A stretch of 11,825 nt of DNA from contig JAKFYO010000057.1 in the NCBI GenBank assembly GCA_021730825.1, forward strand, positions 1 to 11,825, given 5' to 3'. Below the pieces are notes generated by a model. The model did not search any database and was not told where the DNA came from. It saw nothing but the letters and a program-made list of their open reading frames with translations. Source of the stretch: Hyphomicrobiales bacterium. GTDB taxonomy: Bacteria; Pseudomonadota; Alphaproteobacteria; Rhizobiales; Xanthobacteraceae. Below, in pieces: positions 1-10,147 of the stretch (position 1 is the stretch's first letter; every line of letters begins with the position of its first letter). The translations under genes were made by a program, and so were the position numbers.

Positions 1-175
1 CCTTCACGTCGTTCTGGTTCTGGTTTTCGACGTTGCCCTTGGTCTTGTCCTTCTCGATCTGCTCGACCTTCGGATTTTCCTTCTGCGGAACCGGCTGGGT
101 CGGCTGCGTGGACTGCGCGAGCGCGAAGCCCGACGTCATGATCAAAGCGGTGGTAGTGAGTGCGAACTTACGCAT
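1..175 (-). CDS. Small exported Gln/Asn/Lys-rich protein, C-terminus cut by window edge
   Basis: The reading frame opens at ATG 175 and is still open at base 1, so at least 58 residues are encoded and the end is missing. Residues 1-20 form a typical Sec signal peptide: basic MRKF start, hydrophobic core, small residues, and a likely cut after FALA before QSTQ. The mature part is very hydrophilic, rich in Gln, Pro, Lys, Glu and Asn, with no Cys, so it is probably a small soluble or disordered periplasmic protein. A strong ribosome site GGAGG sits 8 bases before the start. A perfect EcfG-type promoter (224-248) and a 5' hairpin (197-215) lie upstream, which suggests general-stress control. I do not recognise the family. 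Confidence 0.8.
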   Translation of the reverse strand, partial: MRKFALTTTALIMTSGFALAQSTQPTQPVPQKENPKVEQIEKDKTKGNVENQNQNDVK

Positions 176-196
176 GAGTGTAACCTCCAAAATGAA

Positions 197-215
197 AAGC
201 CCCTTGATGGGGCTT
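197..215 (-). other. Hairpin at the predicted 5' end of the 175 transcript
   Basis: AAGCCCC (197-203) and GGGGCTT (209-215) form a 7-bp stem with a 5-base loop. On the minus strand it is followed by TTTTCATTTT, so it could also end transcription coming from the zinc-ribbon gene 281-415. Because it lies between the EcfG promoter and the ribosome site of the next gene, it may instead protect the 5' end of that mRNA. Confidence 0.5.
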
Positions 216-223
216 GCATATAA

Positions 224-248
224 AACGCGCGCGCCGCGCGATCGTTCC
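224..248 (-). promoter_or_regulatory. EcfG-type (general stress response) promoter
   Basis: On the minus strand the sequence reads GGAAC (248-244), 16 bases, then CGTT (227-224). This is an exact match to the known alphaproteobacterial EcfG/PhyR-regulon consensus GGAAC-N16/17-CGTT. It lies about 50 bases before the start of the exported protein at 175, the only gene it can serve in that direction. Transcription would begin around 214-219, at the foot of the hairpin 197-215. The motif match is observed; stress control is inferred. Confidence 0.65.
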
Positions 249-280
249 GAATTAAATGAAAAAGTAGAGTCGGTTAGCGC

Positions 281-415
281 TCATTGGCGCCGCGCTTTCA
301 CGGAAGCAGTCGGCAACGCTTTCAACGTGCCGCATTCGTCGCAGCGATAGGTCGTCGTTCGCGGCGTCGAGAGCTTTTCTTTCATCGGAATTTTACAGAC
401 TGGACAAAGGGGCAC
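281..415 (-). CDS. Zinc-ribbon microprotein, 44 aa
   Basis: Two Cys pairs, C4-x2-C7 (CPVC) and C25-x2-C28 (CDEC), spaced by 17 residues, make a minimal zinc ribbon followed by a short basic tail. The same frame is open up to GTG 517, but that start would lie inside the terminator hairpin of the upstream gene. I therefore prefer GTG 415, which has an AGG about 9 bases upstream and leaves just the zinc-ribbon core. No catalytic residues are visible, so nucleic-acid or protein binding is only an inference. It is one of six small Cys-pair proteins in the first 5.3 kb. Start choice is uncertain. Confidence 0.6.
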   Translation of the reverse strand: MPLCPVCKIPMKEKLSTPRTTTYRCDECGTLKALPTASVKARRQ

Positions 416-500
416 GGCAATACGCCTGACATGAATGTGAGTACGCGCACTAACCCCGCGGCCTTTGATTTGGATGCAATGGCGGCGCAAATAATCAAAA

Positions 501-524
501 GCGGCCGGTGTTGCCACCGGCCGC
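501..524 (-). terminator. Rho-independent terminator of the 555-731 gene
   Basis: GCGGCCGGTG (501-510) and CACCGGCCGC (515-524) form a perfect 10-bp stem. On the minus strand the loop is GCAA and the stem is followed by TTTTGATTATTTG. It lies about 30 bases after the stop of the exported protein gene. Its stem closely resembles those of the terminators behind the related genes at 5604 and 5965. Confidence 0.85.
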
Positions 525-554
525 TCCTGGAGACGAAGTAAACGATACGCGTGT

Positions 555-731
555 TTACTTCACCGAGTCGGGCGCAAAGTTCTTCTGCGGCATCTGCGCG
601 TTCGGACCCTGCTGCGAGGAAGCCGCGCTCAGGTCGAACCAGCTACGATCCTGACGGACCTGCGCGGAAGCGGCAGTCGCGGATGCGATAACCGTCGCGG
701 CGGTAATGGCACCGAGAATAAGCTTTTTCAT
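555..731 (-). CDS. Small exported protein, 58 aa
   Basis: The start at ATG 731 has AAAGGA about 9 bases upstream. Residues 1-23 are a clear Sec signal peptide (MKKLILG..., cut after ASA before Q24). The mature peptide is only about 35 residues, has no Cys, and ends NFAPDSVK. Two other genes here (5604-5765 and 5965-6138) encode proteins with the same layout, the same ASA|Q cleavage site and similar ends (NFDSIK, SFDNIK), so this is probably a more divergent family member. Each is a single-gene unit on the minus strand with a similar terminator. Function is unknown; a periplasmic role is inferred from the signal peptide. Confidence 0.82.
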   Translation of the reverse strand: MKKLILGAITAATVIASATAASAQVRQDRSWFDLSAASSQQGPNAQMPQKNFAPDSVK

Positions 732-766
732 AATGAGTTTCCTTTCGTTGGTAGCCTCGCGATGAA

Positions 767-791
767 AACGTTTCGCGCTGCGAAAAGTTGC
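767..791 (-). promoter_or_regulatory. Possible EcfG-type promoter, one mismatch
   Basis: The minus strand reads GCAAC (791-787), 16 bases, CGTT (770-767), one base off the GGAAC-N16-CGTT consensus. It sits 36 bases before the start at 731. The spacer contains the palindrome TTTCGC-GCT-GCGAAA. Confidence 0.35.
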
Positions 792-871
792 GGGTTTTAT
801 TTTTGCACCTGCTGCATCCAGCGCACGTTTTCGCCACGATTCGAAATTGTTGTGCGCGCGTGTCAGCGCGG

Positions 872-1054
872 CTATTCGGCGGTGAGCCGCGCTTCGGCTT
901 CTTCCTTATCGCGATGCGGCTTCAGATGCGCGAGCACACGCTCCAGATCTTCGTGCGGAAACTTGGCGTTGCAATAAAGACAGAAGAAATCCGGCTGGCG
1001 AGCGAGGGGCGCGGCCACGCTTTGCTTCCGGAAGAGGTCGAACAGGCGCTTCAT
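872..1054 (-). CDS. C2H2-like zinc-finger microprotein, 60 aa
   Basis: C25-x2-C28 (CLYC) is followed by F32 and by H43-x3-H47, with hydrophobic residues between, which is the layout of a single classical C2H2-type finger. The N-terminus (MKRLFDLFRK) is basic and amphipathic; the C-terminus is a charged Glu/Arg helix. The start ATG 1054 has only a weak upstream GGAT. It follows the four-gene unit 1783-1101 by 46 bases in the same direction and may be its last member. It is not a Ros/MucR protein, which is larger. Nucleic-acid or protein binding is inferred only. Confidence 0.68.
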   Translation of the reverse strand: MKRLFDLFRKQSVAAPLARQPDFFCLYCNAKFPHEDLERVLAHLKPHRDKEEAEARLTAE

Positions 1055-1100
1055 TATCTAAGAATATCCGGCGGCGCGAAAAGTTCCATTATTTACCGCG

Positions 1101-1316
1101 TCAGATACTGTATTCCCCGCATTGCGTGCATTCGTACATGACCGAGGTGCCGCCTTTGGGCTGGGTGATGCGGTGTACCTCGCGGAAGCTTTTGCTTCCG
1201 CAGCGGCAGGCGCTGCCGGGCTTCGTGGCTGCGGTGCCATCGTTTGTAAATCTAAAATCGCCGTGAGACGCCGGCGTTTCCGGCTCCACTGGTTTCGGCG
1301 GCTTCGACTGTGCCAC
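1101..1316 (-). CDS. Zinc-ribbon protein with CxCGS...MYECxxCG motif, 71 aa
   Basis: Residues 1-36 are Pro/Thr/Ser-rich and look disordered. The C-terminal half has C37-x-C39-G-S and M-Y-E-C63-x2-C66-G, a zinc ribbon. The protein encoded at 5066-5296 shares the same order and spacing (CFCGS...MYECIGCGKY), so the two are paralogues 3.7 kb apart and on opposite strands. The start is GTG 1316, preceded by GAGAG, 11 bases after the stop of the gene at 1328, so the two are co-transcribed. Function is unknown. Confidence 0.75.
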   Translation of the reverse strand: MAQSKPPKPVEPETPASHGDFRFTNDGTAATKPGSACRCGSKSFREVHRITQPKGGTSVMYECTQCGEYSI

Positions 1317-1327
1317 GCGTTGCTCTC

Positions 1328-1543
1328 TCAGATGCTCGCGGTGGTGGCCGGCTTCACGGTTTCGCGCTTGGCAATCCGGCCGAAAATCTGGTCCGGCGTT
1401 TCCAGCACGGTCACCGAGTCCGACGGGCCGAAGGTAATCAGCGTTCCGTAATTGCGCTCGTCGCGCAGCACGATGTTCGCACGATCGAGATTGACTTCGA
1501 CTGGGCGGTTGTCGGTTTTAGTTAACGTGATCCAAGCGCTCAT
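1328..1543 (-). CDS. Unrecognised small beta-rich protein, 71 aa
   Basis: The protein starts MSAWITLTKTDNRPVEVNLD and alternates hydrophobic and polar residues throughout (VNLDRANIVLRD, LITFGPSDSVTVLE), suggesting a small beta barrel or sheet, with a short helix and flexible tail at the end. The overall pattern recalls the FlbD/YlzI-type small proteins (I-x-L-T-...-V), but the match is weak. ATG 1543 is chosen over the in-frame GTG 1555 because GGTGAAAG provides a ribosome site and the extension adds only four residues. It lies in an operon between the 35-aa membrane peptide (8-base gap) and the zinc-ribbon gene (11-base gap). Confidence 0.72.
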   Translation of the reverse strand: MSAWITLTKTDNRPVEVNLDRANIVLRDERNYGTLITFGPSDSVTVLETPDQIFGRIAKRETVKPATTASI

Positions 1544-1551
1544 GCGTTCTT

Positions 1552-1659
1552 TCACCAGTGAAGCTGAACGATGCGCGCGAGCACGATTGCTGTTGCGAGG
1601 ATCGGGATAACAAGCGGTGGCGTGATGTAGCTTGCGAAACTGTTCGTGCGCTTAGCCAC
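1552..1659 (-). CDS. Single-TM micropeptide, 35 aa
   Basis: GTG 1659 opens a 35-codon frame. A basic, polar start (MAKRTNSFASY) is followed by about 19 hydrophobic residues (positions 12-30: ITPPLVIPILATAIVLARI) and a short end VQLHW, fitting an inner-membrane peptide with one span. Its start overlaps the last 8 bases of the upstream 43-codon gene in another frame, and its stop lies 8 bases before the next start, which is the spacing expected of a translationally coupled operon member. No function can be assigned. It could be chance, but hydrophobic segment, operon spacing and usable start all agree. Confidence 0.6.
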   Translation of the reverse strand: MAKRTNSFASYITPPLVIPILATAIVLARIVQLHW

Positions 1660-1783
1660 GTGCGGCCTGCGCTTCCATCTTCTCGACTTCCCGCTGATCC
1701 TTGAGCCAGCGCAGCAAGATCTGGTGCTTGATCTGCACCACTGAAGGCGACTTCAGCTTGTTTCCGAATTTTCGCTTTTCCAT
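1652..1783 (-). CDS. Basic helical microprotein, 43 aa
   Basis: ATG 1783 follows a good ribosome site (AGAGGAAACG). The product starts MEKRKFGNKLKSPS and continues as a predicted helix rich in Lys, Arg, Glu and Gln to its end (WLKDQREVEKMEAQAARG). There is no Cys, signal peptide or TM segment. It is the first gene of a leftward unit running 1783 to 1101 and overlaps the next start by 8 bases. The strong positive charge suggests nucleic-acid or ribosome contact, but that is speculation. Confidence 0.68.
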   Translation of the reverse strand: MEKRKFGNKLKSPSVVQIKHQILLRWLKDQREVEKMEAQAARG

Positions 1784-1811
1784 CGTTTCCTCTAGAGCGA
1801 GCGAGAAAAAA

Positions 1812-1829
1812 GCCCGGCTTGCGCCGGGC
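1812..1829 (-). terminator. Rho-independent terminator of the 1844-1984 gene
   Basis: GCCCGGC (1812-1818) and GCCGGGC (1823-1829) form a 7-bp stem with loop GCAA on the minus strand, followed by TTTTTTCTCGC. It lies 15 bases past the stop of the Pro-rich gene and separates it from the 1783 operon. Confidence 0.8.
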
Positions 1830-1843
1830 CTTCGAGCGGCAGC

Positions 1844-1984
1844 TTACTTGCTGCTTGTGCTTTTCTCTGCCGGTTTTTCCGGAGATGGTGCGCTCTTTTC
1901 AGGTTGCGGAGCCGCGGGCATTACCGGCGGAGAATTCACTTCCGGCTTCGGCGTGTCGGCTGCAAGAATTGCAGGATTGGTCAT
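1844..1984 (-). CDS. Pro/Lys/Glu-rich microprotein, 46 aa
   Basis: ATG 1984 has AAAGG about 9 bases upstream. The short start MTNPAILAAD is followed by a low-complexity segment of Pro, Lys, Glu, Ser and Ala (PKPEVNSPPVMPAAPQPEK...) ending STSSK, so it is probably disordered. It lacks a convincing signal peptide, although the start might be a remnant of one. A dedicated terminator right after the stop supports a real transcription unit. An overlapping ATG at 2001 in another frame is not preferred. Function is unknown. Confidence 0.65.
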   Translation of the reverse strand: MTNPAILAADTPKPEVNSPPVMPAAPQPEKSAPSPEKPAEKSTSSK

Positions 1985-2139
1985 GGTAATGACCTTTCAT
2001 GTTCAACCTAAAAACATATCTAGGCAGAAAGTAGTGATAGCACGCACGGTCTGCTAAATTGAGGCTGCATTGCGCCTTCGCGCGTTTACTTGCGCAAAGC
2101 TGGCCTTATTTACGTTTATCGAAGCTGCTATGAAGATCT

Positions 2140-2361
2140 ATGTCAGAAAACAATTCGGTCGGCCTGAATGGTATGGGCAACGATTTCAAGTGCATCGCTA
2201 TATGGAGCACTAGCACCGGATTTCACCGCTTCCATGCTTCGGGATATCTATCACCCAAAGACGCGAAAGACGCTGCAAGGGTGGGCGCAAACTCATCAGG
2301 CTATATTCGCCCTTCCTTCTTTGCTTATCTCCTGCGTGGCGGCCTGGTTTTCGAGACTTAA
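2140..2361 (+). CDS. Doubtful small ORF, 73 codons, in a gap of about 390 bases
   Basis: Between 1985 and 2377 no convincing gene is visible. The best candidate begins at ATG 2140 and has a plausible composition (GYLSPKDAKDAARVGA), but only a weak GAAG before it and no recognisable motif. A second frame (2168-2431) covers the same stretch and runs into the better-supported gene at 2378, and a 27-codon frame begins at 2130. GC is lower here than in the surroundings. It could be a decayed gene or plain intergenic DNA. Confidence 0.2.
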   Translation: MSENNSVGLNGMGNDFKCIAIWSTSTGFHRFHASGYLSPKDAKDAARVGANSSGYIRPSFFAYLLRGGLVFET

Positions 2362-2377
2362 CGCACTCTTTGCCTTG

Positions 2378-2563
2378 CTAATGCTCGATTGCAGCGTCCA
2401 ACGCCTTGGCAAGCGCTTTCGCTTTGTATAGGGCAGCCCTACGCCTTTCCTGATCGCTTCCATCACCCACAGTGATCATGCAGCGTATGGAATCTCCTCC
2501 CTGTGACAGCACAACCGAATACTCATTGCTGTTACCATTCCTCGTTACTTCGAGTTTATCCAT
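2378..2563 (-). CDS. Unrecognised small protein, 61 aa
   Basis: ATG 2563 has GGAG 5 bases upstream. The N-terminal half (LEVTRNGNSNEYSVVLSQGGDSIRCMITV) looks like three beta strands; the C-terminal part (SDQERRRAALYKAKALAKALDAAI) is one amphipathic helix. A compact alpha/beta fold is likely. There is one Cys, no signal peptide and no TM segment. It stands alone, with no same-strand gene nearby. I do not recognise the family. Confidence 0.72.
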   Translation of the reverse strand: MDKLEVTRNGNSNEYSVVLSQGGDSIRCMITVGDGSDQERRRAALYKAKALAKALDAAIEH

Positions 2564-2604
2564 ATTGGCTCCGAAAATTCGTTTGCAGTTGTAAAATGCC
2601 GGCA

Positions 2605-2634
2605 GAGGCCGCGCAGAGTGGAAAGCGCGGCCTC
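2605..2634. repeat. Perfect 10-bp inverted repeat, strong hairpin
   Basis: GAGGCCGCGC (2605-2614) pairs with GCGCGGCCTC (2625-2634) around a 10-base loop. It lies in the gap (2564-2802) between the divergent genes 2563 and 2803. No T-run follows on either strand, so a terminator is unlikely. It could be a leader structure or an operator. Confidence 0.55.
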
Positions 2635-2683
2635 CTCCCGGCGCAGTTCTCCGTTACCGGAGATCGCGCACGAGTTCTTTTTT

Positions 2684-2707
2684 CGCGGCTATCGCTTCGT
2701 AGCCGCG
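2684..2707. repeat. Second inverted repeat in the same gap
   Basis: CGCGGCTA (2684-2691) pairs with TAGCCGCG (2700-2707) around an 8-base loop. Six Ts precede it and a T5 stretch follows about 7 bases after it. This is a weak terminator at best on the plus strand; it may form a two-hairpin leader with 2605-2634 ahead of the gene at 2803. Confidence 0.45.
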
Positions 2708-2802
2708 CTATCTATTTTTCCAGGTGCCACGTAAGGTCGCTCTCTAGCGCCCGTTCGCGTATGCAGATCGTTGCATCCCGGTCCTGCGCCGGAGATCGTT
2801 CG

Positions 2803-2943
2803 ATGGCCACCGATGAAGAACGGCAAAGTGAGGCGCAGCGCTACGTACTCTATACGCTTGGTGTGCTTACAACCGCGCTGGTTTTAAGCTTTCTGTTTCT
2901 CTTTAATTTCACGAACTTCTTCAAGCTCGCGGTACCGCTCTAG
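2803..2943 (+). CDS. Single-TM microprotein, 46 aa
   Basis: ATG 2803 has GGAG 8 bases upstream. The protein begins with a charged cytosolic stretch (MATDEERQSEAQR) and then a long hydrophobic segment from about residue 14 to 40, with two Asn-Phe turns near its end, so one membrane span is expected. The frame is open further upstream to 2503, but that extension has poor composition and crosses the hairpins. Its TAG stop shares the tetranucleotide CTAG with the stop of the opposing gene 2940-3134. Family unknown. Confidence 0.7.
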   Translation: MATDEERQSEAQRYVLYTLGVLTTALVLSFLFLFNFTNFFKLAVPL

Positions 2944-3134
2944 TTCGGGTCCCGCTTGATCGCGCTTTGCGCGATGATGCGCTGACATCTTTCCGCGTCG
3001 CTCTTCACCAGATAGAGCGGATCGTCGCCATCGAACGGGCGTAGCGCCAGAATCCGGAAGCTGTTGTCGTTTGCGACGCGCAGGTTATCGCGTGTGAGAT
3101 GTACCGTCTGGCCAATCCGGAATTTGTGAAGCAT
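2940..3134 (-). CDS. Small protein with predicted beta-barrel pattern, 64 aa
   Basis: The best start is ATG 3134 (MLHKFRIGQTVHLTRDNL), preceded by GGCGAAAG, 17 bases after the stop of the FYDLN-type gene. The open frame extends back to 3203 but there it overlaps that gene. The pattern FRIGQTVHL...FRILALRPFDGDDPLYLVKSD is that of a small SH3-like barrel with a charged helical end. It is the last gene of the 3477-3292-3134 unit and converges on 2803-2943 with a 4-base overlap at CTAG. The family looks familiar as a conserved rhizobial hypothetical, but I cannot name it. Confidence 0.74.
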   Translation of the reverse strand: MLHKFRIGQTVHLTRDNLRVANDNSFRILALRPFDGDDPLYLVKSDAERCQRIIAQSAIKRDPN

Positions 3135-3151
3135 CGAACTTCTTTCGCCGG

Positions 3152-3292
3152 TCAGGATACGATCGCCACTGCGTCGGTCAGCGCGGTCTTGCATTTCGGA
3201 CAAACGATCGGGCGCTTATCGAGGTCGTAGAATTTGGCGGCGCACGCAGTGCAAATCCGTTTGGTGCCTGTCGGCGGTACTGGCTTGCTCAT
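3152..3292 (-). CDS. Stand-alone FYDLN-type zinc-ribbon head, 46 aa
   Basis: The sequence contains C14-x2-C17, then FYDLDKRPIVCPKC (21-34) with C31-x2-C34. This is the hallmark of the TIGR02300 / FYDLN_acid family of alphaproteobacterial proteins. Those are usually over 100 residues, with a long acidic tail; here only the zinc head and a 12-residue end (KTALTDAVAIVS) remain. ATG 3292 overlaps the stop of the preceding membrane-protein gene (ATGA), so translation is probably coupled. It could be a trimmed paralogue of the full-length gene. The molecular role of the family is not established; nucleic-acid association would be a guess. Confidence 0.8.
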   Translation of the reverse strand: MSKPVPPTGTKRICTACAAKFYDLDKRPIVCPKCKTALTDAVAIVS

Positions 3293-3477
3293 CGTGGCGC
3301 ATCGTTTCCGGGCCAGATGCCCGTGAATACGCGCCAGCCTATGAAGAAGGCGCAGGTGCCGATCAGGCTCGCGACGAAAACAGATTCAGAAACGGCCGAG
3401 TATTTCGCCCAAGCGACAAAAACGATCAGCGGGATGATAAGTATGAGGTAACCGACGAGCTTTGAGTGGTCATTCAT
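3289..3477 (-). CDS. Two-TM small membrane protein, 62 aa
   Basis: From ATG 3477 the protein reads MNDHSKLVGYLILIIPLIVFVAW, a first span at about residues 7-23, and a second span at about 34-52 (VFVASLIGTCAFFIGWRVF), joined by a short polar loop. No clear ribosome site precedes this start; the open frame continues to GTG 3546, but the added segment is very basic and unlike a leader. It opens a leftward unit of three genes and overlaps the next start by 4 bases. Function unknown. Confidence 0.66.
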   Translation of the reverse strand: MNDHSKLVGYLILIIPLIVFVAWAKYSAVSESVFVASLIGTCAFFIGWRVFTGIWPGNDAPR

Positions 3478-3794
3478 CCGCGGGGGGCGCGAGCGATCAT
3501 TGCTGCAAGCCTTCTTTCGGCTCCGATGCGGAACGCGATAGCGCACACTATAGGCGCGCGGCGCCCGTCAAATGAGGCGCTTCCACGGCCCGCACGAGTA
3601 TATTCGCGGGTTTTGCAGCGGGATTTGCTATTCCGCGAAATCTGGCGCATAGCGCTCCCGTTCGATCTGCTGCTGTACTGGCCAACGGGCCCAAAGAGCT
3701 CTCTCCAAGACATCGCTGCATCGGGAAAAGGTTCTGCGCGCACTGCGTAGCGCCTGCAATCTCGCCTATGATGGCGATACTTATGGAGACTACA
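3478..3794. other. Intergenic stretch between divergent units; probable csp leader
   Basis: No gene is supported here. It must hold the promoters for the leftward 3477 unit and the rightward cold-shock gene. I see the inverted repeat TTCGCGG (3603-3609) / CCGCGAA (3633-3639), and within it a near-repeat GGGTTTTGC / GGGATTTGC. A long structured leader would be usual for a CspA-type gene, but I cannot place the transcription start. Confidence 0.4.
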
Positions 3795-3998
3795 ATGGTT
3801 ACCGGCGTTGTGAAATTTTTTAACACGCAAAAAGGCTTCGGCTTCATTCAGCCCACCGACGGCTCGAAAGATGTGTTCGTTCATATCTCGGCAGTCGAGC
3901 GCTCGGGCATGAGCACGCTCAACGAAGGTCAGAAAGTGACTTTCGAAGTCGTCAGCGAGCGCGGCAAGCTTGCCGCTTCGAACCTGCAGAACGCCTAA
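3795..3998 (+). CDS. CspA-family cold-shock protein, 67 aa
   Basis: A complete single cold-shock domain. The RNA-binding motifs are K13-GFGFI (RNP1) and V27-FVHI (RNP2), with the typical MVTGVVKFFNTQKGFGFI start and a TFEVVSERGKLAASNL end. Length equals the family norm (65-70 residues). The domain binds single-stranded RNA/DNA and acts as an RNA chaperone in the cytoplasm. ATG 3795 is preferred over the in-frame ATGs at 3768 and 3783 because GGAG lies 8 bases before it and it gives the canonical N-terminus. A strong terminator follows 23 bases after the stop, so it is a single-gene unit. Which csp paralogue it is cannot be said. Confidence 0.96.
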   Translation: MVTGVVKFFNTQKGFGFIQPTDGSKDVFVHISAVERSGMSTLNEGQKVTFEVVSERGKLAASNLQNA

Positions 3999-4020
3999 GC
4001 GTTTCGCACGAGAATAGAGA

Positions 4021-4049
4021 AAGCCCGGCTTAACAGCCGGGCTTTTTTT
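4021..4049 (+). terminator. Rho-independent terminator of the cold-shock gene
   Basis: AAGCCCGGCT (4021-4030) and AGCCGGGCTT (4035-4044) form a 10-bp stem with a 4-base loop, with a run of seven Ts at 4043-4049. On the minus strand the stem is followed by TCTC, so it might weakly serve the converging gene 4068-4289 as well. Confidence 0.93.
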
Positions 4050-4067
4050 GTTTGGGCGATACGGGAA

Positions 4068-4289
4068 TCAGCGTTTCTTTATTTCCCGGTTTTTTGCTTT
4101 TTGCTTTTCAGCGAGCGCGTCGCGCGAAGCTTTGTTCGTGGCGGCGCGTGCCTTGCGCGTCGGCTCGGAAGCCTGCCGCAGCTTCTCCACGCGATCTTCC
4201 AGGTTATCGAGAGTGAGTCCGCTGATCGATTTCGAAGCCATTTCGGCTTCGGTCGGCGGAGTGCTTTCCGTACGGGGCTTTTTGCTCAT
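4068..4289 (-). CDS. Charged helical protein, 73 aa
   Basis: From ATG 4289 the protein has a disordered start (MSKKPRTESTPPTEAE) and then a long, highly charged helical region (LDNLEDRVEKLRQ...RDALAEKQKAKNREIKKR) with possible coiled-coil heptads near residues 25-38. It is strongly basic at the end. There is no Cys or TM segment. The ribosome site is weak; an internal start at ATG 4241 (MASKSISG) is possible. It converges on csp with only a terminator between. Composition and codon use look like real coding sequence; function is unknown. Confidence 0.68.
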   Translation of the reverse strand: MSKKPRTESTPPTEAEMASKSISGLTLDNLEDRVEKLRQASEPTRKARAATNKASRDALAEKQKAKNREIKKR

Positions 4290-4371
4290 TGCGGCTTGTA
4301 GCAGGTCGTTCCTCTGTGCGTAACCGCACGTGGGTTCGCCGCCCGCTTATTTGTTCTGACGCAGTTTTACT

Positions 4372-4397
4372 GGAACGTACTGCCGCAGCGGACGGTT
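4372..4397 (+). promoter_or_regulatory. Weak EcfG-like promoter candidate
   Basis: GGAAC (4372-4376), 17 bases, GGTT (4394-4397): one mismatch from GGAAC-N16/17-CGTT. It lies 36 bases before the ATG of the zinc-ribbon gene at 4434, a sensible distance. Confidence 0.3.
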
Positions 4398-4433
4398 AGT
4401 CAGGCGAGGGCCAAGAAAATCAGGAGGCGGCCT

Positions 4434-4613
4434 ATGTTAAATTGCGAGCCAAGCGACCAAGAAATTTCCTGCCCGCATTGCGACGCGATTTATTGTCTCG
4501 ACGGACGCGTGCGGCACCCCGAGCCCTACGTGTGCAAAAGCTGCGGACGCATGATGTATGATGGAAGAAGAAAGCTGATACCGGGACGCTGCAATGTTAG
4601 CGTCTCAAGCTAG
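4434..4613 (+). CDS. Zinc-ribbon microprotein, 59 aa
   Basis: ATG 4434 is preceded by a near-perfect ribosome site (AGGAGG, 7 bases). C13-x2-C16 (CPHC) and C34-x2-C37 (CKSC) with a 17-residue loop form a classical zinc ribbon, followed by a basic patch (MMYDGRRKLIPGR). C4, C21 and C53 are extra. The pattern is like rubredoxin-type or DksA-type ribbons, but without their other features; nucleic-acid binding is inferred only. Its TAG stop shares CTAG with the stop of the opposing ribbon-helix-helix gene. Transcription may start at the EcfG-like site 4372-4397. Confidence 0.8.
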   Translation: MLNCEPSDQEISCPHCDAIYCLDGRVRHPEPYVCKSCGRMMYDGRRKLIPGRCNVSVSS

Positions 4614-4876
4614 CGCTTCTTGGGCTCGTCCTCACCGGAATTCATGATGCCTCCCGGCGAACCGCCGGTGACACCATACGAGCTTGATTGGCCGCCGGGC
4701 GCAGCAAAATCGAAACCTTCGGCAGCAAGACCGCGCTTTAACAGTTCGCGTATTGCCGACGCGCGGCTCGGCATCCGCGAATTGAAACGGAAGTCATCCA
4801 GAGCTTGCACTTCTTCTGGCGTCAGCATGACCTGCAGGCGCTCTTCGCGCGTCGTGTTCTTTCCGTCTTTCGGCAT
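4610..4876 (-). CDS. Ribbon-helix-helix domain protein, 88 aa
   Basis: Residues 13-50 fit a ribbon-helix-helix (CopG/Arc-like) DNA-binding fold: strand RLQVMLT (13-19), helix 1 (EEVQALDDFRF), the turn SRMPSR (33-38), and helix 2 (ASAIRELLKRGL). Residues 55-88 form a Gly/Ser-rich flexible tail with an acidic-basic end (GEDEPKKR). Such proteins dimerise and bind operator DNA with the N-terminal strand. No adjacent toxin gene is visible on the same strand, so an antitoxin role is not supported; a free-standing regulator is more likely. The start ATG 4876 has AAGGGG 3-4 bases upstream. Convergent with 4434-4613 at CTAG. Confidence 0.87.
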   Translation of the reverse strand: MPKDGKNTTREERLQVMLTPEEVQALDDFRFNSRMPSRASAIRELLKRGLAAEGFDFAAPGGQSSSYGVTGGSPGGIMNSGEDEPKKR

Positions 4877-4935
4877 GGCCCCTTAAACCTGTTTTCGCGG
4901 CAAGGCCGCAAATTCAGTTACTCAATCTACTCATA

Positions 4936-4960
4936 AACCCAAAAAGCCGCAAAAAGTTCC
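4936..4960 (-). promoter_or_regulatory. Weak EcfG-like promoter candidate
   Basis: On the minus strand GGAAC (4960-4956), 16 bases, GGTT (4939-4936): one mismatch from the consensus, about 60 bases before the ribbon-helix-helix gene. Next to it (4967-4982) an 8-base unit GACATAGG is repeated twice in tandem. Confidence 0.3.
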
Positions 4961-5041
4961 ATAACCGACATAGGGACATAGGGTGCGGAGCGCGGCCAGT
5001 TAGGTCTTGCGGACTGTTAATGACGGCCGGCAAGGCCAAGG

Positions 5042-5063
5042 TTCGATCCGGAAGAGGATCGAA
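5042..5063 (+). promoter_or_regulatory. Hairpin masking the ribosome site of the 5066 gene
   Basis: TTCGATCC (5042-5049) and GGATCGAA (5056-5063) form a perfect 8-bp stem with loop GGAAGA. The only Shine-Dalgarno-like sequence of the gene (GAAGAGG, 5051-5057) lies in the loop and the first 3' stem bases, and the stem ends 2 bases before ATG 5066. When folded it would hinder ribosome binding. A protein operator on DNA is an alternative. Confidence 0.55.
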
Positions 5064-5065
5064 TT

Positions 5066-5296
5066 ATGAGCAGCTTAGTCGTGGACTTTCTAGTGGACGA
5101 AACGGTGCCGGACGCGACGGAGGCACCGGAAGCGGTCAGAGCGCAACCTGCGCTGGTCGTAAGCGGTATGCCCAAGTGTTTCTGCGGTTCTGAAAATTAT
5201 GTGCTCGCGAACGAAATGATCGCGGACACGATCAAGGGTATTCCTGCCTCGCGCATGTATGAATGTATTGGCTGCGGCAAATATCGCCTTGGCTAA
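5066..5296 (+). CDS. Zinc-ribbon protein with CxCGS...MYECxxCG motif, 76 aa
   Basis: An acidic start of about 35 residues (MSSLVVDFLVDETVPDATEAPE) precedes C38-x-C40-G-S and M-Y-E-C67-x2-C70-G-K-Y, the same zinc-ribbon pattern as in the product of 1101-1316. The N-terminal parts of the two do not resemble each other, so only the metal-binding module is shared. A hairpin at 5042-5063 covers the ribosome site. The next gene begins 83 bases later in the same direction. Function unknown. Confidence 0.8.
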   Translation: MSSLVVDFLVDETVPDATEAPEAVRAQPALVVSGMPKCFCGSENYVLANEMIADTIKGIPASRMYECIGCGKYRLG

Positions 5297-5355
5297 GTGT
5301 TACAAAAAATCCGCCGCGCTATGGTTTGCGCGCCGACGTCGGCATGCTTCACTCT

Positions 5356-5369
5356 TGTTTCAAGAAACA
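5356..5369 (+). promoter_or_regulatory. Operator-like inverted repeat before the 5380 gene
   Basis: TGTTTC-AA-GAAACA is a perfect palindrome apart from its two central bases, ending one base before the ribosome site AGGAG. The loop is too short for a good RNA hairpin, so a dimeric regulator site is more likely. A second palindrome GCCGACGTCGGC lies at 5332-5343. Confidence 0.3.
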
Positions 5370-5379
5370 GGAGAAGGCC

Positions 5380-5559
5380 ATGGCCGAAGACGACAATCCG
5401 CTCGAGGGCGCAGAATTCGAAGCCGCACTCGGCAAGCTACATTCCGGAACGGCTGATCCGAAGGCGCTTGCATTCGTTATCGAAGCGCTTCGCGATGCCG
5501 TGCTTGATCTGCAAGAGCAGGTCTATAGCGGCGATGATGAAGATGACGACGAGAAATAA
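5380..5559 (+). CDS. Acidic microprotein, 59 aa
   Basis: ATG 5380 follows AGGAG closely; the open frame further upstream has no ribosome site and poor composition. The protein begins MAEDDNPLEGAEFEAALGKLHSG, has a middle helix (KALAFVIEALRDAVLDLQEQVY) and ends in a run of Asp/Glu (SGDDEDDDEK). It is strongly acidic, all-helical, with no Cys and no TM segment. A DNA-mimic or chaperone-like role could be imagined but nothing proves it. A strong terminator lies directly after the stop. Confidence 0.78.
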   Translation: MAEDDNPLEGAEFEAALGKLHSGTADPKALAFVIEALRDAVLDLQEQVYSGDDEDDDEK

Positions 5560-5594
5560 AAAATCCGGCCGGCATTGCTGCCGGCCGTTTTTTT
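5557..5594. terminator. Bidirectional terminator between convergent genes
   Basis: CGGCCGGCA (5566-5574) and TGCCGGCCG (5579-5587) form a 9-bp stem, with seven Ts after it (5588-5594) and an A-rich tract before it (5557-5563). It therefore can stop transcription from 5380-5559 (plus) and from 5604-5765 (minus). The loop is TTGC on plus, GCAA on minus. Confidence 0.93.
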
Positions 5595-5603
5595 GCAGCG
5601 GTA

Positions 5604-5765
5604 TTACTTGATGCTGTCGAAGTTCGTGATCGTCATGTTGTAGCCCTGCGAAGCGCCGCCGACCGAAGCGACCGGATTTTTTTCGAGCGATGTCTGTGCT
5701 GAAGCTGCATTCGCAGAAATAGCCAGAATGCCTGCGGTCAGAACAGCGAAAAGGATCTTGGTCAT
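5604..5765 (-). CDS. Small exported protein with GGASxGYN...FDxIK motif, 53 aa
   Basis: ATG 5765 has GGAG 7 bases upstream. Residues 1-23 form a Sec signal peptide cut after ASA before Q24. The mature peptide is only 30 residues and contains GGASQGYN and the end TNFDSIK. The gene at 5965-6138 encodes the same C-terminal block (GGASWGYN...TSFDNIK), so they are tandem paralogues; the 555-731 product is a more distant relative. There is no Cys and no membrane anchor. Likely periplasmic or secreted; function unknown. Confidence 0.87.
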   Translation of the reverse strand: MTKILFAVLTAGILAISANAASAQTSLEKNPVASVGGASQGYNMTITNFDSIK

Positions 5766-5923
5766 TTTAAATCTCCGTCATTCGAGCGAACCAGGATTGA
5801 TCTGCTCTTGATACTGTCCATACGAGTGTAAGAGCCAATACGTTTCGCCGCCGCCGATAAAGTCCGCGTGATCGTAGCGTGAAGTACGGGGGATTTCCCG
5901 AAAAGAGACAGACATAAGAAAAG

Positions 5924-5949
5924 AACGGCCGGCATTCCTGCCGGCCGTT
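5924..5949 (-). terminator. Rho-independent terminator of the 5965-6138 gene
   Basis: AACGGCCGGCA (5924-5934) and TGCCGGCCGTT (5939-5949) give an 11-bp stem; on the minus strand the loop is GGAA and the tail TCTTTTCTT. It also has a T5 tract on the plus strand. The core is the same as in the 5566-5587 terminator, suggesting gene and terminator were duplicated together. Confidence 0.9.
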
Positions 5950-5964
5950 TTTCATGACGTTACG

Positions 5965-6138
5965 TTACTTGATGTTGTCGAAGCTGGTGAGGTTGTCGTT
6001 ATAACCCCAGGACGCACCGCCGGTGTTCAGCGAGAGCTGATGCTCATGCCAATACTGCTGCATGGTCTGCGCCGAAGCCGCGCCGACCGAAGCGAACAAC
6101 GTAGCAGCGGCGAGCGTCGCATAAATGAACTTCTTCAT
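5965..6138 (-). CDS. Small exported protein with GGASxGYN...FDxIK motif, 57 aa
   Basis: ATG 6138 has GGAG 7 bases upstream. The signal peptide spans residues 1-23 (MKKFIYATLAAA..., cut after ASA before Q24). The 34-residue mature part starts QTMQQYWHEH and ends GGASWGYNDNLTSFDNIK. It is the upstream member of the tandem pair with 5604-5765; the two are separated by a terminator and about 160 bases, so each is expressed on its own. The conserved aromatic and Gly residues in so short a peptide suggest a specific interaction, but no partner is known. Confidence 0.87.
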   Translation of the reverse strand: MKKFIYATLAAATLFASVGAASAQTMQQYWHEHQLSLNTGGASWGYNDNLTSFDNIK

Positions 6139-6530
6139 GGTGAGTCTCCTGTTGATTAAGCCGCTGGATCACCGGCGGCTGACAACAAGTAATTCCGCGA
6201 ATGAGGAATTTGGATGCGCCGCATCATCACGAAGGCGTGACGAGAAAAGTAGACGGCGCGTTTACGCGAAAATTGGCTGGCGAGAGTCGCGAATGATCAA
6301 GCCGTCATGCAACGCGCTCGTTGCGCCTGCGCACATTTCTCACTTCATCTGCGACGAAGGTAGAGGCGGGAGGAAGATACTGTTGCCCGCCACGCACACA
6401 TTGCGCCGGTAATCTGGCGCGCGAACACGCGATCGCCTTAATGGCTAATGCCCTCGGCGCGGATCACGTATGCGCGTCGGGCGTGATCGAATATCGAAAA
6501 TAAACGGCGCGCATACAAAGCGCTGGCTGG
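6139..6530. other. Gene-poor stretch of about 390 bases
   Basis: No convincing gene. Small frames exist, for example ATG 6292 to 6412 on plus with a weak GAGAG before it, but composition is not coding-like. I see two short inverted repeats: AATTCC/GGAATT (6191-6210, loop 8) and TCACG/CGTGA (6227-6240, loop 4). The left end must carry the promoter for 5965-6138; the right end follows the stop of the hydrolase gene, but I find no clear terminator. Confidence 0.4.
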
Positions 6531-7502
6531 TCAGAGCTTCGGGCTCCAGAAGTCGGCGTGATAGCGATACTGCGTGCCGGTTCGCTCGACGTAGCCAAGT
6601 CCGGGGAAAGGAAGGTGCATGCCGGCGACGAGAAGACGATCCGCTGCGGCCATATCGAACGCCCGTTTTCTTGCGGCTGCTGCTTGCGCCTGGTCGGTGT
6701 CGAAGGCGAGCGTCCATTCCGGGCGCTCGAATTGTAGTGCTGCGTTATGAACGATGTCGCCCCAGACCAGCATCTGTTCTTTCTCGGAGGCGAACAGATA
6801 TCCCGTATGGCCCACCGTGTGGCCGGGTAAGGCGAGCGCGGAAACGCCGGGCGCAATTTCACCGGTTTTGGGAAGCGGTTTCAGCCGGTGCGCATAAGGT
6901 TTGATCGCCCTCGCAGCCATCTCGAAGAACGGTTTAAACTCGGCGGGCGCTTTTTCGGCAGTCTCCGCGCTTAGCCAGAATTTCGCGTCGGCTTCAGAGA
7001 CGTAAATCTCGGCATTCTTGAAAACAGGCCGCCCCTCCATCGTCATGCCGCCGAAGTGGTCGGGATGCAGATGGGTGAGCAGGATCGCATCAACCTGGTC
7101 GGGATTGATGCCGGCCAGCACCAGATTTTCAGCGACGCGTCCGAGCGAGGAGCCCATCAACACGCCCGTGCCGGTGTCGACCAGATAGAGTTTTTCGCCA
7201 GTGTTCACGGCAAACGCATTCACGTGCGAACGCGGCGGTGAGGGCTGGTAGCTCTGTGCCGAGAGCTTCTGTATTTCCGCGGCGTCGCCGGAGAATAGCT
7301 TGAGCTCGAGTTCGATGTCTCCGTCGAGCACCGAAGTCACTTCGAAGGCGCCAAGTTTGCGGCGGACAAAACCCGGAGCCTGCGCTTTTGCGAGGGGCAT
7401 TTTCGCAGCCGCAAGCGTAGGAATCGCGCTCGTGCCTGCAAGCGCTCCGGCGCCAGCCATCAGCGCGCGGCGCGTGAGCGAATACCGGCCTTTGCTGCTC
7501 AT
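6531..7502 (-). CDS. Tat-exported MBL-fold hydrolase, methyl parathion hydrolase-like, 323 aa
   Basis: ATG 7502 is chosen (AGAGG with 9-base spacing; it puts the Tat signal at the very start). Residues 8-33 hold a twin-arginine signal: SLTRRALMAG, hydrophobic core, small-residue end (PTLAAA). The metallo-beta-lactamase core has H144-x-H146-x-D148-H149 (THLHPDH), H232 (GHTVGH), D249 (WGDIVH) and H296 (GMHLPFPG), a complete two-metal set. The order, the segment FEVTSVLDGDIEL, VNTGEKLYLVDTG and the end FPGLGYVERTGTQYRY resemble methyl parathion hydrolases, from memory of that family. It likely hydrolyses an ester, lactone or phosphotriester in the periplasm; the natural substrate is unknown. It diverges from 7726 across 223 bases and has no operon partner. 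Confidence 0.92.
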   Translation of the reverse strand: MSSKGRYSLTRRALMAGAGALAGTSAIPTLAAAKMPLAKAQAPGFVRRKLGAFEVTSVLDGDIELELKLFSGDAAEIQKLSAQSYQPSPPRSHVNAFAVNTGEKLYLVDTGTGVLMGSSLGRVAENLVLAGINPDQVDAILLTHLHPDHFGGMTMEGRPVFKNAEIYVSEADAKFWLSAETAEKAPAEFKPFFEMAARAIKPYAHRLKPLPKTGEIAPGVSALALPGHTVGHTGYLFASEKEQMLVWGDIVHNAALQFERPEWTLAFDTDQAQAAAARKRAFDMAAADRLLVAGMHLPFPGLGYVERTGTQYRYHADFWSPKL

Positions 7503-8161: not shown

Positions 8162-8734
8162 TCGTCAGAAAATTTCACATATGCCTATAAGCCGCGCCTG
8201 ATGGGCCCCGCTTACGAGTTCGTGCTCTCCAAGGACTCGCTCGATTGGGCGATCGGTCCCCGCAACGGGCGCGTGAGCTATCCCATGATCAAGCAGATCA
8301 GGCTCGGCTACAAGCCGACTAACATGGCGAACTCCCGCTTCATGGCCGAGATCTGGCCGCTGAACGCCCCAAAACTTCTGGTTTATTCAGTTTCGGCGCA
8401 GTCGTTGATCGATATGGCGGATCAGGGCAGCGATTACAGTCGTTTCATCCGCGAACTGCATCGGCGCGTCGATGCCGCGAAAACGAACTGTGTTTATGAA
8501 GCGGGATTTCCGGCGTGGCGTTGGTGGCCGTCCCTCATTGTCGGCGTGCTGACTGCGCTCGCAATCGTCTACGTCGTGTTTCAGGGGATTTCCGCCGGAC
8601 AACATCTGGTCGCAGGGGTCATCGCCTTTATCGGTGCGTGGTTTCTCTGGCAGATCTGGAACATCGTGATGCGCAACCGTCCGCGCCGTTACGCGCAAGG
8701 TGCAATTCCGGAAGATGTGCTGCCGAGGGTCTAG
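8159..8734 (+). CDS. Two-TM membrane protein with N-terminal cytosolic domain, 191 aa
   Basis: Residues 1-115 are a soluble alpha/beta domain (FTYAYKPRLMGPAYEFVLSK, then VSYPMIKQIRLGYKP and MAEIWPLNAPKLLVYS), with a bacterial PH-like strand pattern. Residues 124-142 and 148-170 are two membrane spans, followed by a basic end (MRNRPRRYAQG). I recognise the pattern as a conserved hypothetical of Rhizobiales, without known function. ATG 8159 is supported by the expected N-terminus but lacks a ribosome site and lies in the hairpin 8130-8161; the next in-frame ATG (8201) also lacks one. Its TAG stop shares CTAG with the phosphatase gene on the other strand. Confidence 0.82.
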   Translation: MSSENFTYAYKPRLMGPAYEFVLSKDSLDWAIGPRNGRVSYPMIKQIRLGYKPTNMANSRFMAEIWPLNAPKLLVYSVSAQSLIDMADQGSDYSRFIRELHRRVDAAKTNCVYEAGFPAWRWWPSLIVGVLTALAIVYVVFQGISAGQHLVAGVIAFIGAWFLWQIWNIVMRNRPRRYAQGAIPEDVLPRV

Positions 8735-9252
8735 CCCTTAGCCTGCAGGCTTGCCGGCGTCAGAAACATCTCTAGCCGGCCCGCTGGCGGCCCGGCTTCC
8801 TTCCAGCGGTTGACCGGCAGTTCGATCACGGCGAGGCCGCAGGTCGGATATTTTTTCTCGATACGGCGGATTGCGTCCGCGTCGCCGGATTTTGCGAAGC
8901 TGCGTGCAAGGCGCTCCATGCCGGGATTATGACCGACGCAAAGGAGCGTCTGCACGTCATCCGGCACGGTGTGAACGAACCCGAGAATCGTCTTTTCGGA
9001 TGCGCCGTAAAGGCCATTCACTTCTTGCGAAGGAATCTGCTTTCCAAATTGCGGCGCGACGAGGTCCCAGGTCTGCCGCGTGCGAACCGCGGTCGAAATC
9101 AGCGCAAGATCGGGAACGATCCCGGCACGCGCAATCGCCTTGCCCATTTCCGGGGCATCGCGGAGGCCACGTTCGGCGAGCGGCCGCAAGGCGTCGTCAT
9201 AGCCATCCGGCCAGTCGGACTTGGCGTGACGAAGAAGCAGAAGACGGCGCAT
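8731..9252 (-). CDS. SixA-type histidine phosphatase family protein, 173 aa
   Basis: Histidine-phosphatase (phosphoglycerate mutase-like) superfamily. The catalytic LLLRHAKSDW carries H9 with R8; LAERG (26-29) and STAVRTRQT (53-61, R57 and R59) belong to the phosphate pocket; VGHNPG holds the second catalytic H108. Length and motif order fit SixA-like phosphohistidine phosphatases, which remove phosphate from histidine of HPt-type proteins; many rhizobial members have unknown targets. ATG 9252 has AAGGA 7 bases upstream. It follows the MoxR ATPase gene by 52 bases in the same direction, so co-transcription is possible. Cytosolic. Confidence 0.92.
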   Translation of the reverse strand: MRRLLLLRHAKSDWPDGYDDALRPLAERGLRDAPEMGKAIARAGIVPDLALISTAVRTRQTWDLVAPQFGKQIPSQEVNGLYGASEKTILGFVHTVPDDVQTLLCVGHNPGMERLARSFAKSGDADAIRRIEKKYPTCGLAVIELPVNRWKEAGPPAGRLEMFLTPASLQAKG

Positions 9253-9304: not shown

Positions 9305-10147
9305 TTAACCTTCGCGCCGCGACAGGAAGGCGAGCCGCTCGAACAGATGTACGTCCTGCTCGTTCTTCAAGAGCGCGCCGTGCAGCGGCGGGATCAGCTT
9401 CTTCGGATCGCGCTCGCGCAGCGTTTCCGGGCCGATGTCTTCGACCATCAAGAGTTTCAGCCAGTCGAGCAGTTCGGAGGTCGAGGGCTTCTTCTTGAGA
9501 CCCGGCACTTCGCGGATTTCGTAGAACATACGCAGCGCTTCGGCGACGAGACGCTGCTTGATGCCGGGGAAGTGGACCTCGACGATCTCGCGCATGGTGT
9601 CGGCATCGGGAAAGCGGATGTAGTGGAAGAAGCAGCGGCGCAGGAATGCGTCCGGCAATTCCTTCTCGTTGTTCGAGGTGATGACGATGATCGGACGCTT
9701 CACCGCCTTGATCGTTTCGCCGGTCTCGTAAACATGAAATTCCATGCGATCGAGCTCTTGCAGGAGATCGTTCGGAAACTCGATGTCGGCCTTGTCGATT
9801 TCGTCGATCAGAAGCAGCGGCCGTTCTTCGGCAGTAAACGCATCCCAAAGCTTGCCGCGCTTGATGTAATTTCTGATCTCGGACACGCGCGGGTCGCCAA
9901 GCTGGCTGTCGCGCAGGCGCGCGACCGCGTCGTATTCATAAAGACCCTGTGCGGCCTTGGTGGTCGACTTGATGTGCCATTCGATCAACGGAGCCTTGAT
10001 CGCTCGCGCCACTTCGGCCGCCAGAACCGTCTTGCCGGTGCCGGGTTCGCCCTTGATCAACAACGGGCGTTCGAGCGCGATCGCGGCATTGACCGCTACT
10101 TTCAGATCGTCGGCCGCGACGTAGCTTTTGGTACCTTCGAAACGCAT
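9305..10147 (-). CDS. MoxR-type AAA+ ATPase, 280 aa
   Basis: Walker A GEPGTGKT (33-40), Walker B LLLIDEID (111-118), sensor-1 ITSNNEKELPDAFLRRC (156-172) with candidate arginine fingers at R170/R171, and a C-terminal helical lid. The FHYIRFPD segment and overall length (about 280) fit the MoxR subfamily, which helps assemble or insert metal cofactors into protein complexes together with a von Willebrand factor A (CoxE-like) partner. That partner is not next to it here; instead a SixA-like phosphatase follows. ATG 10147 has GGAG 6 bases upstream. It diverges from flgE across about 260 bases. Confidence 0.93.
   Translation of the reverse strand: MRFEGTKSYVAADDLKVAVNAAIALERPLLIKGEPGTGKTVLAAEVARAIKAPLIEWHIKSTTKAAQGLYEYDAVARLRDSQLGDPRVSEIRNYIKRGKLWDAFTAEERPLLLIDEIDKADIEFPNDLLQELDRMEFHVYETGETIKAVKRPIIVITSNNEKELPDAFLRRCFFHYIRFPDADTMREIVEVHFPGIKQRLVAEALRMFYEIREVPGLKKKPSTSELLDWLKLLMVEDIGPETLRERDPKKLIPPLHGALLKNEQDVHLFERLAFLSRREG

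Follow-up and report, generated by a model that had tools for sequence, protein, structure and literature searches.

The stretch of DNA analysed here (in the following, the window) is contig JAKFYO010000057.1, 11,825 bp long, from the Hyphomicrobiales bacterium assembly GCA_021730825.1; it is the whole of contig C23 in our numbering of this assembly (G000, 2.1 Mb, 73% complete). Positions 1 to 6138 hold an array of small genes, which is described in the following together with its flanks, its history within the genus and its possible link to the general stress response. The comparison set consisted of eight genus genomes (G000 and seven genus mates) and of genomes outside the genus, numbering 53 for the counts of s4, s19 and s21 and 113 for the search with the cold-shock leader.

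The small-gene array and its coding evidence

In total, 24 candidate genes (s1 to s24) of 35 to 88 codons, with a median product length of 59 amino acids (aa), cover 70% of positions 1 to 6138. They are listed here with coordinates, strand and the ratio of non-synonymous to synonymous differences (pN/pS) in the claimed frame; percentages refer to the orthologue in the genome named.

2..175, minus: s1, exported microprotein, complete at its 5' end and running for 58 codons up to the end of the contig, 3' end outside the window; one orthologue (G004, 71%), pN/pS 0.44
281..517, minus: s2, zinc-ribbon-like protein, start uncertain; one orthologue (G004, 48%), pN/pS 0.43
555..731, minus: s3, exported microprotein; G004 90%, pN/pS 0.42 pooled with paralogues
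872..1054, minus: s4, small protein with CxxC; pN/pS 0.27
1101..1316, minus: s5, small CxC/CxxC protein, distant paralogue of s20; pN/pS 0.41
1328..1543, minus: s6, 71-aa protein; pN/pS 0.24
1552..1659, minus: s7, 35-aa membrane-like protein; pN/pS 0.40, three genomes
1652..1783, minus: s8, 43-aa protein; pN/pS 0.28, four genomes
1844..1984, minus: s9, 46-aa Pro-rich protein, ribosome site and ATG conserved; pN/pS 0.30, four genomes
2140..2361, plus: s10, 73-aa protein; G003 84%, pN/pS 0.16
2378..2563, minus: s11, 61-aa protein; G003 92%, pN/pS 0.07
2803..2943, plus: s12, 46-aa membrane-like protein; pN/pS 0.31, four genomes
2940..3134, minus: s13, 64-aa conserved protein; pN/pS 0.25, five genomes
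3152..3292, minus: s14, 46-aa zinc ribbon protein related to FYDLN_acid but shorter; pN/pS 0.28
3289..3477, minus: s15, 62-aa membrane-like protein; pN/pS 0.36, five genomes
3795..3998, plus: s16, cold-shock protein (PF00313, 88.2 bits, cut-off 27); pN/pS 0.18
4068..4289, minus: s17, 73-aa charged protein; pN/pS 0.30, two genomes
4434..4613, plus: s18, CxxC zinc-ribbon-like protein with an AGGAG ribosome site, without conservation support
4610..4876, minus: s19, ribbon-helix-helix-like regulator; pN/pS 0.37
5066..5296, plus: s20, small CxC/CxxC protein; pN/pS 0.34
5380..5559, plus: s21, 59-aa acidic protein; pN/pS 0.32
5604..5765, minus: s22, exported microprotein, paralogue of s24; pN/pS 0.60, paralogue matches only
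5778..5915, minus: s23, doubtful 45-aa frame without orthologue or ribosome site
5965..6138, minus: s24, exported microprotein with a conserved GGASxGYN...SFDNIK end; pN/pS 0.36, five genomes

For 22 of the 24 candidates, genus mates carry homologues within the corresponding region. The codon test used homologues of at least 40% identity; s18 and s23, for which no orthologue was found in the genus comparison, were excluded beforehand. In all 22 testable candidates the claimed frame was free of stops and had the lowest pN/pS of the six frames (0.07 to 0.60), in alignments that come from protein similarity and are therefore biased toward this frame. Given the same treatment, a non-coding control element at 3628-3759 showed values of 0.70 to 1.15 in all frames. 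The second-lowest ratio always belonged to the antisense frame sharing third positions, as expected. In the case of s1 and s9, the antisense frame was likewise open. Support was weakest for s22, and for s1 and s2 with their single orthologues. Judged by these substitution patterns, most of the array genes are real and under purifying selection.

Such a density of small genes is uncommon in these genomes. Frames of any kind in positions 1 to 6138 reach 147 codons at most. Among sampled windows of 6138 bp, none of 362 in contigs C1-C20 of the own assembly (298.5 kb, minimum 335 codons) and none of 560 from the genus mate G007 (20 stretches with 400 kb in total, minimum 287) had a longest frame that short.

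Further sequence signals accompany the frames. Ribosome-site words precede 13 of the 24 candidates (with the s1 start counted one base off and an arbitrary start for s2), compared with 24 of 183 ATGs in positions 1 to 6530. Terminator-like hairpins number 25 in the same 6530 bp versus 11.0 (standard deviation 3.5) in shuffles; sigma-70 consensus sites are not enriched (2 versus 2.8 in shuffles). The pairs s7/s8 and s14/s15 overlap on the same strand, and s12/s13 and s18/s19 have overlapping or shared ends in a tail-to-tail arrangement. Two of the hairpins, at 5559-5592 and 5919-5952 beside s21/s22 and s24, are nearly identical, with a relative at 495-528.

Altogether, these results confirm the observation in the original prediction, which had described 6.1 kb of exclusively short genes, none above 88 codons, and had put their number at 22. 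As those 22 were not listed, gene-by-gene matching with ours is impossible; eleven had been placed below 60 codons, and we count ten or eleven among the 22 genes with homologues, depending on the s2 start. The ribosome sites, overlaps, shared stops and terminators it had noted are seen in the counts above, and the comparison it had proposed, conservation and selection gene by gene in relatives, is answered by the 22 pN/pS values.

A slot that varies within the genus

On its left side the array is cut off by the end of the contig; relatives have a CoxE-like vWA gene on this side. To the right, the following genes were identified:

6531..7502, minus: MBL-fold gene (PF00753, 75.5 bits)
8731-9252: histidine-phosphatase gene, labelled SixA here
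9305..10147, minus: MoxR-type ATPase gene (PF07728)

The right side additionally contains a gene for an exported protein of 114 aa, one for a membrane-like protein of 191 aa, and flgE, the latter name being taken over from the original prediction. The final 57 codons of flgE recur without any difference at a second contig end (G000:C70:1-171), perhaps through strain mixture or assembly overlap.

Genus members differ in what lies between the vWA gene and the MBL/moxR/flgE block: single genes are present, absent or moved in this slot. A tree of four flank proteins joins the window with G004 (0.998) and then with G006 (0.953), its deeper branches being weak. The island of G004, the nearest genome, is collinear with the array except for single-gene gaps; s7, s10-s11, s18-s20 and s22-s23 were not found in it. 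The vWA gene of G004 is present as two separate pieces, from a frameshift or an assembly error. The genes s6-s9 and s12-s16 are common to G003, G006 and G007, and in G007 s4 and s17 lie at other places within the island. Because s10-s11 occur in the window and G003, and s19-s20 in the window, G002, G003 and G007, repeated loss or transfer is implied. As far as gene content can be compared, the array genes come and go mostly as single units. Both s4 and s21 were found in 7 of 8 genus genomes and in 0 of 53 others; a second s21-like gene lies outside the island in G004 (G004:C12:38525-38701).

Outside the genus, the slots of G010, G033, G011 and G015 are of similar length (8 to 13.5 kb from the vWA gene to moxR) and hold mostly long frames (families unchecked); apart from weak s9 matches in two of them, no match to an array gene was detected there. 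In G012, G014, G023, G030 and G031 the distance from the vWA gene to moxR is only about 0.5-0.8 kb. A database-wide search in 5.8 billion proteins, covering the families of s24, s13 and s6, gave 37, 30 and 55 homologues, respectively, with Xanthobacteraceae, Rhizobiales or Hyphomicrobiales as the named hosts; with so few homologues, these three families are taxonomically narrow. The claim of a specialised accessory region, made in the original prediction, is supported by the single-gene variation in the genus together with the long frames in the four outgroup slots.

Long cargo changes at the vWA edge, with an HD phosphohydrolase-type gene in G001 and a TPR-containing frame in G002. In the own genome, contig C299 carries beside the vWA gene an AT-rich AAA gene (positions 1-1265 of locus L165), whose best PADLOC match is HEC-03B (E 3e-160). 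If C299 adjoins the window, this HEC-03B-like gene may be cargo with a defence role, situated at the opposite edge of the slot.

Regarding family assignments, s19 matches the transcriptional repressor family phrog_4738 (E 4.6e-8) and has no Pfam match. For s2, Pfam zinc ribbon models stayed below cut-off, and s18 gave weak matches only, elsewhere in the genus. NCBIfam matches were limited to cold-shock models, FYDLN_acid and, for s1, a sub-threshold likeness to a precursor model of ribosomally synthesised and post-translationally modified peptides (18.7 bits, cut-off 50). An assignment of s6 as FlbD was rejected at 15 bits (cut-off 24.7); within its family, 13 of 32 aligned members match FlbD at E <= 0.1, the best at E 0.0045. 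The s13 profile had no match at E <= 1 among PDB sequences. PADLOC returned a cold-shock model (4.5e-14) for the small candidates, the rest being weak (PtuB 0.00047, PDC-M16B 0.0034). The exported proteins s24, s22 and s3 have similar signal peptides, and GGASxGYN and FDxIK are common to s24 and s22. In the s24 family (window and database homologues), conservation is about equal in the signal peptide and the mature C-terminus, which is unusual. Upstream of s24 (6139-6250), an inverted repeat TCACG...CGTGA, conserved in 5 of 5 aligned genomes, is a possible operator.

EcfG-type promoters and the cold-shock leader

All eight genus genomes have a NepR match, which in G000 is a fragment lying at the end of a contig. 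A matrix for EcfG-type promoters was trained on 32 distinct GGAAC-N15-18-NGTT sites around the genus NepR loci, some of which may be chance occurrences, and the lowest training score (14.6) served as threshold. These sites are of the same kind as the published EcfG motif, given as GGAAC-N17-20-GTT for Sphingomonas melonis in a section of PMC6599016. Three predicted promoters and one leader were located in the array:

224..248, minus: EcfG-type promoter of s1; matrix score 17.0, kept in G004 (2 of 2)
4372..4397, plus: EcfG-type promoter of s18; matrix score 16.7, without orthologue for comparison
4936..4960, minus: EcfG-type promoter of s19; matrix score 21.2, kept in 4 of 4 orthologues
3661..3794, plus: conserved non-coding leader of the cold-shock gene s16; high conservation in 6 of 8 genus genomes, flat codon pattern

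By matrix score and position, three array genes have EcfG-type promoters, of the form GGAAC-N16/17-[CG]GTT, and one cold-shock gene has a conserved leader. Matrix sites number 3 in the 6.53-kb array; the own contigs have 7 over 298.5 kb (Poisson P 5e-4), and 380 kb of G007 contain 1. Nine genus island segments (57.3 kb) have 9 sites together, orthologous sites included. A weaker GCAAC-N16-CGTT lies upstream of s3, and GGAACYTT precedes s4 in 5 of 7 cases; in G007 and G002, s4 overlaps with the s19 end instead.

The leader stands out by its conservation. Among the 113 other genomes, only one 28-base match to it was found; in G003 the leader occurs once more, in shortened form, ahead of another cold-shock gene. 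A frame at 3628-3759, in and beside the leader, was rejected as a gene since its substitutions ignore codons, with a flat pattern; this conserved stretch is absent from the original prediction. In the predicted fold, CUCUCC pairs with the Shine-Dalgarno sequence, and a rival UCGCC/GGCGA hairpin appears possible by eye. As 0 of 30 pairs changed on both sides and the fold is ordinary for its composition (z-score -1.4), the modelled structure is a suggestion. Rfam gave no match at gathering score over the window and one chance-level match near the leader (E 0.57).

Interpretation and comparison with known systems

We interpret the region as a genus-specific hotspot, that is, a variable slot between the CoxE-like vWA gene and the MBL-SixA-moxR-flgE genes that collects, keeps and rearranges small genes, part of them EcfG-driven. 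To this we assign a probability of roughly 60%. Under stress, EcfG would be freed from NepR and would switch on s1, s18, s19 and probably s4. The products, small exported, zinc-binding and regulatory proteins, might then adjust the envelope and gene expression, and the remaining array genes would be under separate control. The slot may stay open because gains and losses there harm no neighbouring operon.

Several observations weigh against this interpretation. The remaining 21 candidates have no EcfG site at the matrix threshold, and the same holds for the island segments of G001, G005 and G006 (3 of 9). By a simple upstream score, the count is only 5 of 24 candidates versus 7 of 110 elsewhere. 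The enrichment per kb is overstated because the background is mostly coding DNA, and s18, one of the three promoter-bearing genes, is itself without conservation support. Additionally, s19 occurs in 4 of 8 genus genomes and also in 5 of 53 outside the genus. Judging from the predicted sites, a minority of the array genes probably belongs to the general stress regulon. The suggestion in the original prediction that the region perhaps serves stress adaptation therefore stands in part: the three EcfG-type promoters, the cold-shock gene and the PhnA, DUF892 and DUF305 genes that relatives carry in this slot favour it, but for most of the 24 genes no stress link was found.

The strongest alternative, a serious contender, is that the slot is merely a permissive place where short orphan genes gather without common function or regulation, the EcfG sites belonging to a few unrelated members. 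Gene sets that differ in each genome, the changing long cargo and the many genes lacking an EcfG site would fit this explanation, but it accounts poorly for the core of s6-s9 and s12-s16 persisting in three relatives and for EcfG sites that exceed background and are kept for s19. More doubtful is a stronger version of our interpretation, namely a dedicated small-protein array in which exchangeable single-gene microprotein units are assembled, duplicated, moved and retained, part of them driven by the general stress sigma factor, so that the whole would function as a single evolvable locus for stress adaptation.

Two further explanations are improbable. Many of the frames could have arisen by chance or be remnants of longer genes in decay, as the lack of orthologues for s18 and s23 might suggest, and the match of s14 to the FYDLN_acid model (PF09538, 55 bits, cut-off 23.9) is confined to model positions 5-39 of 105, the s14 protein stopping after the zinc ribbon without the acid-rich C-terminal part; s14 is, however, comparably short in relatives, and the codon test speaks for all 22 testable frames. 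A decayed mobile element or prophage remnant, which the variable content and the repressor-like s19 might recall, is hardly credible given intact frames under selection, a window without tRNA, PHROG matches confined to cold-shock, ribbon-helix-helix and unnamed families, and the lack of integrase, transposase or phage structural families among the matches in positions 1 to 6138 (the region left of the contig end being outside view), which bears out the earlier statement that phage and transposon genes are absent. Concerning integron-type repeats, the only multi-copy repeat found, with no attC model run, was the terminator-like hairpin.

As a rule, small genes in bacteria are dispersed and of uncertain status. 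The present array brings some two dozen of them together, and for 22 there is evidence at the codon level. Its history can be read gene by gene over eight genomes, and the stress promoter was calibrated within the genus itself, so that the origin, loss and use of microproteins become testable at one place.

Parts of the array resemble known systems. In Escherichia coli, cspA has a long conserved leader before the cold-shock gene. The s16 leader is likewise long and conserved, with a predicted pairing at the Shine-Dalgarno sequence; unlike the cspA leader, it has no Rfam family at gathering score and no compensatory changes. In common with the EcfG regulon of the alphaproteobacterial general stress response, the same promoter type stands before s1, s18 and s19, and EcfG targets in a table of PMC6599016 include small secreted and hypothetical proteins. 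In contrast to that regulon, the promoter is limited to a minority of the array genes, and their EcfG dependence is here a prediction.

Small open reading frames have reportedly been surveyed in Sinorhizobium meliloti, and the array shares with such work, and with the survey of Bradyrhizobium japonicum USDA 110, the presence of conserved small genes in Hyphomicrobiales. The latter survey treats such frames genome-wide and, in the sections available, does not mention a dense array (PMC5082802). A comparable small-gene array was not described in the titles and abstracts that literature searches of open-licence PMC papers returned.

Variable chromosomal slots between conserved genes, or genomic hotspots, are a known concept. 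Like these, the array has fixed flanks in the genus, changing content and long AT-rich cargo, such as the HEC-03B-like gene, at one edge; its content differs in being mainly single small genes under selection instead of mobile-element or long cargo genes. The genus-specific small-gene hotspot is probably a variant of such known variable slots, with a likely stress-regulated part.

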